The notes under the pieces were generated by a model. The model worked only from the letters and a program-made list of their open reading frames with translations, did no database searches and was not told the DNA's origin. Positions 50,798 through 56,732 of a DNA stretch of 64,000 bases are shown here, piece after piece. The DNA is from Runella sp. MFBS21 (GTDB lineage: Bacteria > Bacteroidota > Bacteroidia > Cytophagales > Spirosomataceae): positions 1 through 64,000 of the forward strand of contig NZ_JARNTW010000009.1 in assembly GCF_029433105.1 (NCBI RefSeq). Direction: 5' to 3'. The translations under genes were made by a program, and so were the position numbers. How positions within the stretch are numbered: position 1 is the first letter of the stretch; each line of letters opens with the position of its first letter.

Positions 50798-50813
50798 TGT
50801 CAGATAGCCGACA
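50798..50813. promoter_or_regulatory. 16-bp palindromic site upstream of the YHS gene
   Basis: TGTCAGATAGCCGACA has outer half-sites TGTC/GACA with an inner G/C pair. Its centre (50805.5) lies 36.5 bases before the end of a -7-like element CAGTTTTG (50835-50842, 7/8 to TAnnTTTG). That places it near -42, the usual place for a class II Crp/Fnr activator. A nearly identical site with identical spacing precedes the DM13 gene. Confidence 0.65.
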
Positions 50814-50865
50814 TTTGGTATGATAGAAAGAAAGCAGTTTTGTGTCGTAAAAAAACATTTATGTC

Positions 50866-51327
50866 ATGAAAACAAAAATTTCTTTGTTTATCGCACTATT
50901 GATGCTTGGAATCGCTAATGCTCAACAAAATCTAAATTACCGTACAAAACAATTTAACTTAGACAAAGGAGTTGCTTTGTCGGGCTATGACCCGGTTAGT
51001 TATTTTCTTAAAAATCCCACGAAGGGTTCTAAAACGTATGTATTTACGCAAGACGGGGTTAAGTATTATTTTGCGAATGCGGCCAACCTAGAGACTTTCA
51101 AGAAAAACCCTGCTGCTTATGAACCTCAATATGGCGGCTGGTGTGCTTACGCTATGGGTGCCAAGGGCGAAAAAGTCGAAGTAGACCCTGAGACTTATAA
51201 AATCGTGGAAGGTAAATTGTATTTGTTTTACAATCGGCTCTTCAACAATACCCTTACTGACTGGAATAAGGATGAAAGCAATCTGAAAAGAAAGGCAGAT
51301 GTCAACTGGATGAAATTTGTAAAATAA
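50866..51327 (+). CDS. Secreted YHS domain protein
   Basis: A 153-residue exported protein. The signal peptide is MKTKISLFIALLMLGIANAQ, then a YHS domain (about 40-105) with ALSGYDPVSYF, YYFANAANLETFKKNPAAYEPQYGGWCAYAM. YHS domains bind metal in several proteins, and the conserved Tyr, Cys and aromatic pattern is kept (Cys in GGWCAY). It opens the group of four plus-strand genes and has the palindromic site in front. The ATG is 23 bases after the -7 element. Confidence 0.88.
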   Translation: MKTKISLFIALLMLGIANAQQNLNYRTKQFNLDKGVALSGYDPVSYFLKNPTKGSKTYVFTQDGVKYYFANAANLETFKKNPAAYEPQYGGWCAYAMGAKGEKVEVDPETYKIVEGKLYLFYNRLFNNTLTDWNKDESNLKRKADVNWMKFVK

Positions 51328-51356
51328 TTGCTTTCAACTAATTTTAGAACAGAGAC

Positions 51357-51758
51357 ATGGAAATTAGAAAGATTATTTCGTGGATAGCCCAAATAACGGC
51401 AGCAGTAATTTTACTACAAACTTTATGGTTTAAGTTTACGGCAGCCCCCGAGAGTGTTTATATATTTTCAACTTTGGGTGTAGAGCCTTATGGGCGAATT
51501 GGTTCAGGAGTCATAGAGTTAGTAGCGGGATTACTTTTGTTGACTCCCCGATTTTGTAGTCTCGGAGCTTTGATAGCACTAGCTACGATGAAGGGAGCTA
51601 TTATCTCACACCTTACATTGCTAGGAATAGAGATATTGGGTGATGGGGGAGAGCTATTTGGATTGGCAATCATTACTTTTGTTTGTTGTGGAGTAGTAAT
51701 ATTTTTAAATTTTGAACAGCTTCGTGGTTTTGCACGAAAATGGGGAATACTCTTTTAA
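51357..51758 (+). CDS. DoxX family membrane protein
   Basis: A 133-residue inner-membrane protein with four hydrophobic helices in the DoxX pattern (SGVIELVAGLLLLTPR, then FCSLGALIALATMKGAIISHL). DoxX family members take part in respiratory or redox processes in some organisms, but no fixed reaction is known. It starts at an ATG 29 bases after the YHS gene, so they are very likely co-transcribed. Confidence 0.82.
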   Translation: MEIRKIISWIAQITAAVILLQTLWFKFTAAPESVYIFSTLGVEPYGRIGSGVIELVAGLLLLTPRFCSLGALIALATMKGAIISHLTLLGIEILGDGGELFGLAIITFVCCGVVIFLNFEQLRGFARKWGILF

Positions 51759-51803
51759 ATAGAGGGGCGCTTTTTTAGGACTTCTTAAACACATTTCTAT
51801 CGT

Positions 51804-52847
51804 ATGTTTTCCAAACAAAAGTTGCCGCTGTGGCTCATTAAAATATTTAATTATGAATACTGGACATGGTGGGTATTTTTCTTGCCCTTAGCGCCTTATT
51901 GGATGTATTTGGCTTTTCGAAATCGCTCACTTACTTATTTTACCACCGTCAACCCTTGTATCCCTGATGGAGGAGTCTTTGGGGAGTCCAAAAAAGACAT
52001 CCTTGATTTGATAGATAAGTCTTACCGCCCCGCAGATATTTTTGTGTTTAAGGGAGAGAATTGGGAACATGTAAAGCTAAAGCTCACACTGGCCAAAATC
52101 AATTTTCCGGTAGTGGCAAAACCTGACGTAGGAGGACGTGGTTTTAAGGTATATAAGCTAGAAACACCGGAAGCACTTAAAACTTACTTGGAAGCGTCAT
52201 CGCAGCCTGTGATAGTACAAGAATTTATTGATTATGACATTGAGCTAGGTGTCATGTATGCCCGTATGCCCAATGCCTCTTCAGGTCAAATCACCTCGAT
52301 TGTTCATAAAGAATTTCTTCACATAACGGGTGATGGGAAATCGACCGTCGAACAATTATTAAGCCAAAACCTACGCGCACGGTTTTCGATGGACGAACTT
52401 CGCGAACGCCTCAAAGAGCAGTGGCACACTGTACCCAAAAAAGGAGAAACAATGTTTCTACAGCCTATCGGGAATCATTGTTTAGGAACGAAGTTTTTGA
52501 ATGGCAATCACCTCATCAACGAACAATTGGTAAAAGTCTTTGATAAAATCGCTATCCCAATCGATGGGTTTTACTATGGTAGGTTTGATCTGAAAGTGCC
52601 TACATGGGAAGATTTGTATGAAGGGCGCAACATCAAAATTCTAGAACTGAACGGTGCTACTTCCGAGCCTGGGCACGTCTATGACCCAAACTACACGCTT
52701 TGGAAAGCCTACAGAGATATCATGTACAATATGAAAACCGTGGCCGATATTAGTGCTTACAATATGCGTAGAGGTATAAGACCCACTCCGCTGAGGGAAT
52801 TAATTCAGACCTCAAGGACATTTTTTGCAATGAGCGGACAGCTATAG
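51804..52847 (+). CDS. Membrane-anchored ATP-grasp enzyme, D-Ala-D-Ala ligase-like
   Basis: A 347-residue ATP-grasp protein. Residues about 17-40 (YWTWWVFFLPLAPYWMYLAF) are strongly hydrophobic and would tie it to the inner membrane. The ATP-grasp part (about 75-310) shows PVVAKPDVGGRGFKVYK, PVIVQEFIDYDIELGVMY and the metal-binding end YGRFDLKVPTW ... ILELNGATSEPGH, so the fold and Mg-ATP site are intact. Such enzymes join a carboxylate to an amine or thiol; annotation as D-alanine-D-alanine ligase is common but unsupported because the amino acid-binding domain differs. It follows DoxX by 45 bases in the same run. Confidence 0.78.
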   Translation: MFSKQKLPLWLIKIFNYEYWTWWVFFLPLAPYWMYLAFRNRSLTYFTTVNPCIPDGGVFGESKKDILDLIDKSYRPADIFVFKGENWEHVKLKLTLAKINFPVVAKPDVGGRGFKVYKLETPEALKTYLEASSQPVIVQEFIDYDIELGVMYARMPNASSGQITSIVHKEFLHITGDGKSTVEQLLSQNLRARFSMDELRERLKEQWHTVPKKGETMFLQPIGNHCLGTKFLNGNHLINEQLVKVFDKIAIPIDGFYYGRFDLKVPTWEDLYEGRNIKILELNGATSEPGHVYDPNYTLWKAYRDIMYNMKTVADISAYNMRRGIRPTPLRELIQTSRTFFAMSGQL

Positions 52848-52913
52848 GTAGAGTAAATAGTTTTTGTATATTTACCACTACTTATAACCTACTGATAAAA
52901 AAATACTTGCCTA

Positions 52914-53615
52914 ATGGCCTCTCAATTTCCGCTCGAAACCCGCTACTGGTATCTGCGTGATCACCAGTTGTTTAGGCACCTCAATTCCGCCGAACTCCGT
53001 CAAATTTGTCTGATTACAAATTTTAAAACTGCCAAAAAAAGCGAGATTATTTATTTTGCTCATGACGAGCAAAATAGGGTATATTTACTCAAAAAAGGTA
53101 TCATCAAAATCGTAGAGCTTGACGAGGATGGCACTGAGACGGTCAAGGATGTGCTTCAAAAAGGAGACCTCTTTGGACAGCTTACACTCGACGATACCGA
53201 AATGGAAGAATATGCCATTGCGCTGTCTGATTATGTCACTTGCTGTAGTTTCTTAATCGAAGATTTCGAGGAAGTGATTAGACAGCACCCTTCATTGGCT
53301 ATAAAATTTACAAAATTAATTGGGCTGAGATTTCGACGTCTAGAAAATCGTTATTCCAACCTTATGTTTAAGGATGTACGTACGCGATTGCTTCTTTTTT
53401 TGGAAGATTGGGCCGAAAAAGAAGGTACAGTCGAAAACAATGCGATTATGCTCAAAAACTACCTTACTCACCAAGACATGGCGGGATTGGTATGTAGTAC
53501 GCGCCAAACGGTCTCACAATTGTTCAATGAATTTAAGCAGCACGGTCTGATAGACTATAATCGTAGCTCAATCATTATTCCTGATTTAAAACGACTTAAA
53601 AGTTTCGTGAACTAA
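52914..53615 (+). CDS. Crp/Fnr family transcriptional regulator
   Basis: A 233-residue regulator with an N-terminal cyclic-nucleotide-binding-like jelly roll (about 18-125), a dimer helix (about 128-160) and a C-terminal winged helix (about 165-230), with recognition helix STRQTVSQLFNEF. Gln198 stands where Crp and Fnr have a conserved Glu, so its DNA target should differ from theirs. Cysteines are at 32, 110, 111 and 194 but not in the Fnr cluster pattern. The gene sits 66 bases after the ATP-grasp gene and directly before the second palindromic site, so it probably controls both groups and perhaps itself. Confidence 0.92.
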   Translation: MASQFPLETRYWYLRDHQLFRHLNSAELRQICLITNFKTAKKSEIIYFAHDEQNRVYLLKKGIIKIVELDEDGTETVKDVLQKGDLFGQLTLDDTEMEEYAIALSDYVTCCSFLIEDFEEVIRQHPSLAIKFTKLIGLRFRRLENRYSNLMFKDVRTRLLLFLEDWAEKEGTVENNAIMLKNYLTHQDMAGLVCSTRQTVSQLFNEFKQHGLIDYNRSSIIIPDLKRLKSFVN

Positions 53616-53626
53616 TCGTAGCCAAA

Positions 53627-53642
53627 TGTCAGGAAGCCGACA
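53627..53642. promoter_or_regulatory. 16-bp palindromic site upstream of the DM13 operon
   Basis: TGTCAGGAAGCCGACA, sharing 14 of 16 bases with the site at 50798-50813 and followed on both by ATTYGG. Its centre (53634.5) is 36.5 bases before the end of the -7-like element GATATTTG (53664-53671, 7/8), exactly as at the first site. The DM13 ATG follows 25 bases after the -7 element. Confidence 0.65.
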
Positions 53643-53696
53643 TTCGGAGTGAGGTAAGTTTTTGATATTTGTAATGTAAACTTTAAAACTTATTCC

Positions 53697-54137
53697 ATGA
53701 AACGATTATGGCTTATCACATTGCTCGCAGCATTTTTGGTGGCTTGTCAAAAAACGGAAGAACTCACTCCCGTAAGTAATGACCCAAATTCTCCTACCAA
53801 ACCTTTGGACAAATTTGATACAGCCGGACAAAAGCTAGTAGCACAGGGCGCTTTTATGTCGAATGTGCATCCTACGTCGGGCAATATCAAGCTGTATCAA
53901 AAAGACGGCAAACAAACGCTGGTTTTTGAGAATTTTAAAACTGACCCTGGCCCCGATTTGCGTATCTATCTTTCAGAAGATAAAGTAGCCTCTAAATTTG
54001 TGGAAGTAAGCCGTCAGGTAAATGTGGGGAATTATTTTGTGGAGCTTCCTGCCAATGCCGATACCAAAAATCAAAAGTTCGTCTTAATATGGTGTAAAGC
54101 CTTCTCTGTACTATTTGGAAATGCAGAGTTAAAATAG
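53697..54137 (+). CDS. DM13 domain lipoprotein
   Basis: A 146-residue lipoprotein. The signal peptide ends in a lipobox, FLVAC, with Cys17 lipidated, followed by a Pro/Ser/Thr linker. The DM13 domain (about 42-145) matches by GNIKLYQKDGKQTLVFENFKTDPGPDLRIYLS and the conserved cysteine in LIWCKAFSVLFG (Cys133). DM13 domains are proposed to carry redox function through this cysteine. It is the first gene of a five-gene plus-strand run. Confidence 0.86.
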   Translation: MKRLWLITLLAAFLVACQKTEELTPVSNDPNSPTKPLDKFDTAGQKLVAQGAFMSNVHPTSGNIKLYQKDGKQTLVFENFKTDPGPDLRIYLSEDKVASKFVEVSRQVNVGNYFVELPANADTKNQKFVLIWCKAFSVLFGNAELK

Positions 54138-54170: not shown

Positions 54171-54887
54171 ATGAAAAAAAGTGTTTTTCTGCTGCTGTTT
54201 TGCACAGCATATAGCTATAGTTATGCCCAAAGTCCCTATTCAAAGAAAGTAACTACTGCTGATGTGGCGATTTCGGCAGGAGGAGGTTTCTCGGGAGCAC
54301 TTTCCTATAGTCAAATGTATGGAATAGGAAAATCCAGCAGGTTTAAAATAGGTTGGGGAGCAAGATTGACGTCGTTTTTTGGTAAAAATCTAGATTATGC
54401 CACTGCCCCAGCTCGTCTTACTTCGGGCCAAACAGGCCCCCAAGTGTTGTTTGTGGAAAATATACTTTCTAATATTGATACGTTGAAGCTATCAAGTACC
54501 CAAACCAACGCCCTTAACTTGGTCATTCATTTGGAATACAATATTAAGAAGCTAGCCATAGGTTTTAATATTGATGCTGTGGGAGTAACTTTTGGGGCAC
54601 AACAACAAGGGACTTTTATGACCAAATCGACGGGTTCTCGATTACACAATACCCAGCAATCTGCCAAACCTACGGCCTTTAATTTGCTGCTTGTCAGCGA
54701 CAATGATTTAGGAAGTCTTAATTCTGAGTTGTATGCGCGCTATTGGCTCAAAGAAAAGCTAGGGCTGAGATTTGGAGCAAGTTTTCAGTTTACCGAATAT
54801 ACTACTTCCCAAAAACTTACGTTCGAAAATGACCGTTTTCGCAACAAAATTTTGATGCCATTTGTAGGGTTATCTATTAGATTATAA
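54171..54887 (+). CDS. Hypothetical outer-membrane beta-barrel-like protein
   Basis: A 238-residue exported protein with signal peptide MKKSVFLLLFCTAYSYSYAQ. The mature part is rich in alternating hydrophobic strands with Gly and aromatic residues and ends in a strand MPFVGLSIRL, typical of small outer-membrane barrels. No family is recognised. It starts 33 bases after the DM13 gene and is probably co-transcribed. Confidence 0.72.
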   Translation: MKKSVFLLLFCTAYSYSYAQSPYSKKVTTADVAISAGGGFSGALSYSQMYGIGKSSRFKIGWGARLTSFFGKNLDYATAPARLTSGQTGPQVLFVENILSNIDTLKLSSTQTNALNLVIHLEYNIKKLAIGFNIDAVGVTFGAQQQGTFMTKSTGSRLHNTQQSAKPTAFNLLLVSDNDLGSLNSELYARYWLKEKLGLRFGASFQFTEYTTSQKLTFENDRFRNKILMPFVGLSIRL

Positions 54888-54916: not shown

Positions 54917-55450
54917 ATGAAAAAAATCTTGATATTTGTATTTTGCGTAAGTATATCGGGATATGGGATTTGTCAAACTTGGCGCCCTACTTCTGCTGAT
55001 ATTGGGTTTAAAATCAAGATGCTAGGAGTGACGGTTGAAGGGAAATTTAAAGGGCTATCAGCCACGATTCATTTTGACCCTAATGGTCCCGCCTCAAATA
55101 GTATCGTAGCGAGTGTTGATGCAGCTACTATCGATACCGACAATAGCCTACGTAATCGGCATTTGCGCGAAAAAGAAGATTTTTTTGAAGTATCCAAGTA
55201 CCCTAAGATTTTACTTAAATCAACCAAAATCGTAAAAACAGCCAGCGGATATATGGGCTATTTTGAAGTGACCATCAAATCAATCACTAAAGAAGTAAAA
55301 ATGCCCTTTACCTTTTCTGAAACAAACAATAAAGCGACTTTTGTAGGAAATGTGAATATCAATCGTCGAGATTGGGCGATTGGAGGCAATACCCTTGGCA
55401 TGTCTAATGATGTGGCTATCTATGTTATCGTTAACACCATTCAACAATGA
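54917..55450 (+). CDS. YceI family protein
   Basis: A 177-residue periplasmic lipocalin-like barrel with signal peptide (ending GYGICQ). The family pattern is clear: STADIGFKIKMLGVTVEGKFKG-like start, DPNGPASNSIVASVDAATIDT, RNRHLREKEDFFEVSKYPKI and DVAIYVIVNTIQ end. YceI proteins bind isoprenoids such as polyprenyl pyrophosphates or quinones. The next gene's ATG overlaps its stop (ATGA), so the two are translationally coupled. Confidence 0.93.
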   Translation: MKKILIFVFCVSISGYGICQTWRPTSADIGFKIKMLGVTVEGKFKGLSATIHFDPNGPASNSIVASVDAATIDTDNSLRNRHLREKEDFFEVSKYPKILLKSTKIVKTASGYMGYFEVTIKSITKEVKMPFTFSETNNKATFVGNVNINRRDWAIGGNTLGMSNDVAIYVIVNTIQQ

Positions 55451-55953
55451 ACTTGCTTCTAAAAACCAACCGAGACATTCTGTCTCAGATTGATGAGTTG
55501 CTCCAAGTGATTTCTTATTCGGCTTATTCTTCGCCTTTGGAGGTATTGCATGGAAGTACGGTAGGGCAGCACATACGGCATACACTTGAGTTTTATCAAT
55601 GTCTATACCAACAAGCACCCCTAGGATTTGTAGATTATGACGCGCGTCTGCGTGATTTAAGACTAGAGACGGATTTAGCTTTTAGTAGGTCGTTGATTCA
55701 CCAACTCAAAAATTGGCTCAGTGAGTCATTATTAAATACTCCCTTGTCTATGAAGGTTTTTTTGGGGAACGAAGACCAGTCTATCATTCATACGTCGCTG
55801 TGTCGGGAATTGTTGTATATGATTGAACACGCTATTCATCATTTGGCTATCATTAAGATTGCCATTACTGGTCAATTTCCTAAAATCCAGATTCCTGCTC
55901 ATTTTGGAGTAGCCTACTCAACGCTCAGATATCGAGAAAGTGCTCTGAAATAG
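55447..55953 (+). CDS. DinB family protein
   Basis: A 168-residue helical-bundle protein of the DinB/YfiT-like superfamily, cytoplasmic. The metal-ligand histidines are placed as usual: QHIRHTLEF (His42, His45) and EHAIHHLAII (His128, His131, His132). Members are often thiol-dependent S-transferases, bacillithiol- or mycothiol-linked, or have no known reaction. It overlaps the YceI gene by four bases. Confidence 0.85.
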   Translation: MNLLLKTNRDILSQIDELLQVISYSAYSSPLEVLHGSTVGQHIRHTLEFYQCLYQQAPLGFVDYDARLRDLRLETDLAFSRSLIHQLKNWLSESLLNTPLSMKVFLGNEDQSIIHTSLCRELLYMIEHAIHHLAIIKIAITGQFPKIQIPAHFGVAYSTLRYRESALK

Positions 55954-56003: not shown

Positions 56004-56732
56004 ATGTGTTTTGTAACATATCTTCCATACCAAGAGGGTTTTATACTCACTTCTAATCGTGACGAACACGTAGGTAGACCTAAAGCCTCTCCTCCCAAAA
56101 AATATTATATCAATGGCAAAACGGTGTTTTATCCTCAAGATACATTGGCCGGAGGAACCTGGATAGCTACCTCTTCCAATGCAACGCTCTGCCTGCTCAA
56201 TGGGGCCTTCCAAAGACATGAACACCGTCCTCCCTATCGGCAGAGTCGAGGATTGGTCGTTTTAGATTTTTTTAAATACGACAATCTCACCCTTTTTCAG
56301 AACCAATACCTTTGGAACGGGATAGAGCCATTTACGCTAGTGGTAGTGGAGGAAAAAGACGAGATTCGGCTGACAGAATTGCGCTGGGATGGCCAGAAAA
56401 TGTACGTTAAGGAATTGGACTCCAGCCAAAGCCACGCTTGGTCGTCGGTGACGCTCTATAGTGATGATGTAATCAAACAACGGGAAGAGTGGTTTGAAAA
56501 ATGGCAGCACAACAACCTCTTTTATACTGGTGAAGATATCATGCAATTTCATGATTTGGGAGGAAATGGAGATATTACTAACGACTTGGTGATCAATCGT
56601 AATGATGAGCTTAAAACGGTAAGTACTACCCAAGTTCAAAAAACTTCGGAGGATTTTTTGATTAAATATCATGACCGCCTCAACGAGCAAGAATACAAAT
56701 ACCGGATTTTTGCTAGCGAAAATGTATGTTAG
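56004..56732 (+). CDS. TANGO2/NRDE family protein
   Basis: A 242-residue protein of the TANGO2 (DUF833, NRDE) family. The start MCFVTYL has Cys2, comparable to an N-terminal nucleophile, and the NRDE motif is at 18-21 (SNRDEHVGRP), with the usual GGTWIA segment at about 51-56. Eukaryotic and bacterial relatives have been tied to heme handling; the biochemical role is still debated. It closes the DM13 run after a 50-base gap and ends five bases from the converging histidine kinase gene. Confidence 0.88.
   Translation: MCFVTYLPYQEGFILTSNRDEHVGRPKASPPKKYYINGKTVFYPQDTLAGGTWIATSSNATLCLLNGAFQRHEHRPPYRQSRGLVVLDFFKYDNLTLFQNQYLWNGIEPFTLVVVEEKDEIRLTELRWDGQKMYVKELDSSQSHAWSSVTLYSDDVIKQREEWFEKWQHNNLFYTGEDIMQFHDLGGNGDITNDLVINRNDELKTVSTTQVQKTSEDFLIKYHDRLNEQEYKYRIFASENVC

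Follow-up and report, generated by a model that had tools for sequence, protein, structure and literature searches.

A Crp/Fnr-family regulator of Runella probably activates two adjacent gene groups from a conserved, promoter-spaced palindrome

We analyzed a 64,000-nucleotide stretch of the genome of Runella sp. MFBS21 (contig NZ_JARNTW010000009.1, positions 1 to 64,000 of the forward strand; here called the window). Two groups of genes lie side by side on its plus strand, with a palindromic candidate operator and a predicted promoter box at the head of each:

50798..50813, plus strand: operator 1, TGTCAGATAGCCGACA (genome pattern scan; orthologous sites upstream of YHS genes)
50835..50842, plus strand: promoter box CAGTTTTG (5 of 6 specified bases of TAnnTTTG; operator 1 centre 36.5 bases away)
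50866..51327, plus strand: YHS-domain protein (NF041384, family match), first gene of operon A
51357..51758, plus strand: DoxX-like protein, operon A (Pfam match below cut-off)
51804..52847, plus strand: ATP-grasp/RimK-like protein, operon A (Pfam)
52914..53615, plus strand: Crp/Fnr-family regulator, last gene of operon A, with the helix STRQTVSQLF (Pfam and alignment)
53627..53642, plus strand: operator 2, TGTCAGGAAGCCGACA (genome pattern scan; orthologous sites upstream of DM13 genes)
53664..53671, plus strand: promoter box GATATTTG (5 of 6 specified bases of TAnnTTTG)
53697..54137, plus strand: DM13-domain protein (Pfam), first gene of operon B
54171..54887, plus strand: protein without a Pfam match, operon B (exported and outer-membrane-like, by eye only)
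54917..55450, plus strand: YceI-family protein, operon B (Pfam)
55447..55953, plus strand: DinB-like protein, operon B (E 0.034, below cut-off)
56004..56732, plus strand: TANGO2-family protein, last gene of operon B (Pfam)

Since no intergenic gap inside either group exceeds 66 bases, the two groups are likely to be two operons. The window sequence bore out several particulars of the initial annotation: 14 of 16 bases are common to the two operators, the centre of each palindrome lies 36.5 bases from the last G of its box, and the regulator's open reading frame is situated between operators 1 and 2. The motif ATTYGG, described there as following both palindromes, stood only in part; TTTGG and TTCGG are present, and the "A" is the palindrome's own last base. 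Each box agrees with TAnnTTTG, which PMC6414381 gives as the Bacteroidota promoter, at 5 of 6 specified bases (7 of 8 when the Ns are counted).

A random scatter of the motif across the genome had been named as the outcome that would speak against a shared operator. Instead, a scan of the whole genome (7.88 Mb; 7,878,171 bases) with TGTCAGNNAGCCGACA returned exactly two matches, both of them the palindromes in the window, and the reversed control returned none. With the spacing to the promoter box included in the pattern, the genome held three matches at no more than one mismatch (control, 0). At up to three mismatches the counts (42+36) were close to those of the reversed control (33+36). Inside the window, five palindromes were found at up to three mismatches, not above the shuffle mean of 3.2, and loose matching there is therefore uninformative. 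A palindrome-only pattern, TGTCRGNNNNCYGACA, matched 77 of 150 genomes, but its control matched in many genomes as well, and it was not used as evidence.

Elsewhere in the same genome, spaced sites precede msrA (PF01625; site at C1:222871) and, with two mismatches, a second YHS gene, YHS2 (C23:371855). The YHS2 site was the only one counted among four at two mismatches, because YHS2 genes of relatives carry the site too. The regulon had been proposed to be small, with about nine genes; these two unlinked genes bring the number to about eleven.

We then turned to 62 named loci that encode a relative of the regulator (34 to 99% identity). They range from Runella and Emticicia to entries that bear the labels Flavobacterium and Algoriphagus, and the regulator of R. 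zeae is 99% identical to that of the window. Absence of the site from relatives that share the genes had likewise been set as a refutation. What we found was the arrangement TGTC-N6-CCGACA, N21, TAnnTTTG upstream of orthologues in Runella, Emticicia, Flectobacillus, Lacihabitans, and others. Over 61 of the 62 loci (L294 was omitted), the pattern TGTCNNNNNNCCGACA-N21-TANNTTTG had 12, 32, and 32 sites at zero, one, and two mismatches, against 0, 0, and 3 for the reversed pattern. The spacing was also measured without being assumed, by taking all 142 cores with at most one mismatch, in both orientations, from these 61 loci and the window (62 sequences). A promoter-like box stood 37 bases from the core 66 times, whereas no other distance between 16 and 60 bases had a count above 4 (mean, 0.84). 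The class II spacing claimed for the window thus holds in relatives.

The site was found in 24 of 28 DM13 upstream regions at up to two core mismatches (22 of 28 at one) and in 17 of 43 YHS upstream regions (16 of 43 at one); 200 Markov shuffles of the upstream regions gave no site at one core mismatch. Of the 26 YHS regions that lack it, five lie behind a site-bearing YHS2 gene, and six are of a degenerate type seen in Arcicella-type loci (L256 to L262); the remaining 15 lay outside this one-by-one breakdown. All seven Arcicella-type loci keep the promoter-proximal half of the operator upstream of YHS (MYGACA) and the exact spacing, and their distal half is degenerate.

To this we added the distribution of site and regulator across 150 genomes of the family, that of the window included. 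Regulator orthologues (E <= 1e-20) occur in 45 of these genomes and in 13 of 36 genera. The spaced site, at no more than one mismatch, was present in 39 of the 45 genomes with the regulator and in 8 of the 105 without it, and six regulator genomes had no site at this threshold. The site totals were 74 in the regulator genomes (control, 5) and 9 in the others (control, 17). Fisher's test for this co-occurrence gives P of 1e-21, a value that ignores the relatedness of the genomes and so overstates their independence. Sixteen genomes have a YHS gene (E <= 1e-10) and no regulator; two of them have a site, in neither case at the YHS gene. The association of the palindrome with the regulator gene at 52914, proposed from the window, was upheld in relatives. 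Another Crp/Fnr protein of the genome might bind the palindrome, with the 52914 regulator an incidental neighbour, and a first look at the genome did list 22 loose Crp-like candidates, one of which passes E 1e-20. However, the sites track this orthologue, and its gene itself sits behind a site-bearing promoter. We consider binding by another family member very improbable.

The regulator has the two domains of the Crp/Fnr superfamily, a beta roll (PF00027, E 7.1e-14) and HTH_Crp (PF13545, E 4.4e-14), both above cut-off, and its fold match agrees with this membership. Its translation confirmed Gln198 in the recognition helix. Among 33 relatives, Arg197 is present in 33 and Gln198 in 30; no site lies near the three Val198 relatives (L286, L290, and L293), nor within the 20 kb of L287, which is 37% identical and has the R-Q helix. 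We take the corresponding residues of CRP to be R-E; NtcA has R-V. Both share overall fold and domains with the window's regulator. PMC1274295 places base preference in the Crp/Fnr family at the specificity positions R180 and E181, and it also gives Gln at position 181 for P. gingivalis HcpR2. HcpR and DNR, heme-based NO sensors, have the Crp/Fnr fold in common with the regulator but different target genes. A covariation of helix and operator at position 202 was considered and set aside, not being clean by eye.

Gln198 had been thought to fit a non-standard target, and comparison with CooA agrees with this idea. Each window operator agrees with the CooA operator consensus TGTCGGCNNGCCGACA (PMC545781) at 12 of 14 specified bases. 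The regulator also shares TRQTVS in the recognition helix with CooA of Carboxydothermus hydrogenoformans, and CooA is its best single-sequence match in the PDB (E 1.9e-20). These likenesses would suit a CooA-type sensor of carbon monoxide that acquired new targets without losing its operator; the known CooA targets in Rhodospirillum, Desulfovibrio, and Carboxydothermus differ from those considered here. However, the column that we take to be that of the CooA heme histidine, L90 in the window's regulator, is occupied by L, F, I, or Y in all 33 relatives and never by His. The heme-ligand histidine of CooA is His77 (PMC12750200). In addition, PF03063 (CooS/Hcp) was found in 0 of the 150 genomes, in a search limited, among CO dehydrogenases, to the CooS type; the same absence separates the family from HcpR and DNR systems. 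A profile search with the regulator family put three NtcA chains at the top, followed by CooA in fourth place. A fold search with the AlphaFold model (mean pLDDT, 79.9) placed actinobacterial CRPs (GlxR and mycobacterial CRP) best and CooA 13th. We rejected CooA identity because the aligned heme position is never His and CooS/Hcp is missing from the 150 genomes, and a carbon monoxide sensor of this type is a most unlikely reading. Since NtcA in the profile search, and GlxR and mycobacterial CRP in the fold search, rank above CooA, the regulator probably forms its own clade with a CooA-like DNA preference.

Features of other sensors of the superfamily were looked for in the same alignments. Crp proteins that respond to cAMP have a phosphate-binding pair of the Arg82-Ser83 type; in our alignment the corresponding stretch reads EEY, with E99 in 29 and Y100 in 26 of 33 relatives. 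FNR binds a 4Fe-4S cluster through an N-terminal group of cysteines, a group not found in the window's regulator, whose only cysteines are 32, 110, 111, and 194. C32 and C194 presumably occupy the cysteine positions of E. coli CRP. C111 is invariant (46/46 and 33/33), and C32 is not (44/46 and 27/33). Redox sensing by C32 and C111 is offered only as a suggestion.

Transcription begins about 5 bases after a TAnnTTTG box. With the start so predicted, the operator centre falls near -41.5, at a fixed spacing to the -7 box, as is characteristic of class II sites. A -33 TTTG element would stand at a 19-base spacer from the box; the promoters look activator-dependent because columns 14 to 17 of the aligned sites, where this element would fall, read CAWT. 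We propose that a dimer of the 52914 protein binds TGTCR-N5-CCGACA operators, where its promoter-proximal half would extend over part of the -33 region, and would recruit RNA polymerase to the TAnnTTTG promoter. It would thereby activate its own operon (YHS, DoxX-like, ATP-grasp, and regulator genes; autoregulation), the adjacent operon (the genes for DM13, the protein without a Pfam match, YceI, DinB-like, and TANGO2 proteins), and the unlinked msrA and YHS2 genes. We give this reading, which is built from sequence comparisons, a probability of about 0.86. A dimer over the -33 region could also exclude polymerase, so that the regulator would repress rather than activate, and a TTTG immediately 3' of operator 1, at a 17-base spacer from its box, could conceivably be a -33-like element. 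However, the constant spacing fits polymerase contact, as does a proximal half that is conserved also in sites with a decayed distal half. We regard repression as improbable and favor class II activation.

The wider regulon was surveyed in stretches retrieved from the family genomes, with as many as two mismatches allowed (reversed control, 3 sites). Sites stood upstream of DM13 genes in 28 genomes, YHS in 21, YHS2 in 10, and MsrA in 8 (seven from the window's genus, plus G033). A LysE-type transporter gene was preceded by a site in 8 genomes and a type III polyketide synthase gene in 5 (at two mismatches only); MsrB, YceI, DinB-like, and ATP-grasp genes each had one in a single genome. Fifteen sites had no recognised gene behind them, four of these being the opposite strand of a palindrome already counted. 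Pfam confirmed the MsrB gene downstream of its site (SelR, L223), an ECF sigma factor gene with a perfect spaced site 31 bases upstream (L219:2265), and an AhpC/TSA-family (peroxiredoxin-family) gene behind a site in Flavobacterium cupreum.

Several loci of relatives have features of their own. The Flavobacterium cupreum locus (L265) carries four spaced sites of an altered type, TGTAA...YGACA, at two mismatches; they precede a short open reading frame followed by TANGO2, the AhpC/TSA-family gene, DM13, and a DUF7482 gene. The polyketide synthase gene has the same operator and spacing, with two mismatches, at L118:14899-17763, L252:2818-3952, L270, L275, and L276, and at L118 methyltransferase and FAD oxidoreductase genes come after it. 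In a Fibrisoma-type genome, a chlorite dismutase-family gene (PF06778, E 9.3e-9; L138:17957-18505) lies beside YHS and DM13; it is assigned to this cluster by its neighbours, not by an operator. One relative that lacks the regulator has TANGO2-like and ATP-grasp regions in a single 592-amino-acid frame (L151:6432-8210, minus strand), which suggests that the two proteins may act together.

The MsrA, MsrB, AhpC/TSA-family, and chlorite dismutase-family genes point weakly to an oxidant as the signal, and we infer that it would be oxidative or otherwise envelope-damaging. The abstract of PMC10470608 links bacterial TANGO2 homologues to heme traffic, and a heme role is disputed according to the abstract of PMC12782551. 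In the open-access literature searched, no title or opening lines of an abstract described this regulon. It is possible, if rather doubtful, that these regulators form an undescribed clade of Crp/Fnr activators for which oxidative or reactive-chlorine damage is the signal, with the invariant Cys111 as a possible sensor, and that the clade controls a conserved programme of envelope protection and repair through its CooA-like operator. If so, the programme would be made up of poorly known proteins: YHS, DM13, DoxX-like, ATP-grasp, TANGO2, YceI, and Msr, joined in some genera by a type III polyketide synthase. For a conserved but little-studied gene block of Bacteroidota, the analysis supplies a candidate operator, promoter architecture, and regulator, so that the inducing signal can be sought by reporter. 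A CooA-like operator in genomes with no detected CooS-type CO dehydrogenase would mean that DNA specificity and sensing are separate in the Crp/Fnr family.
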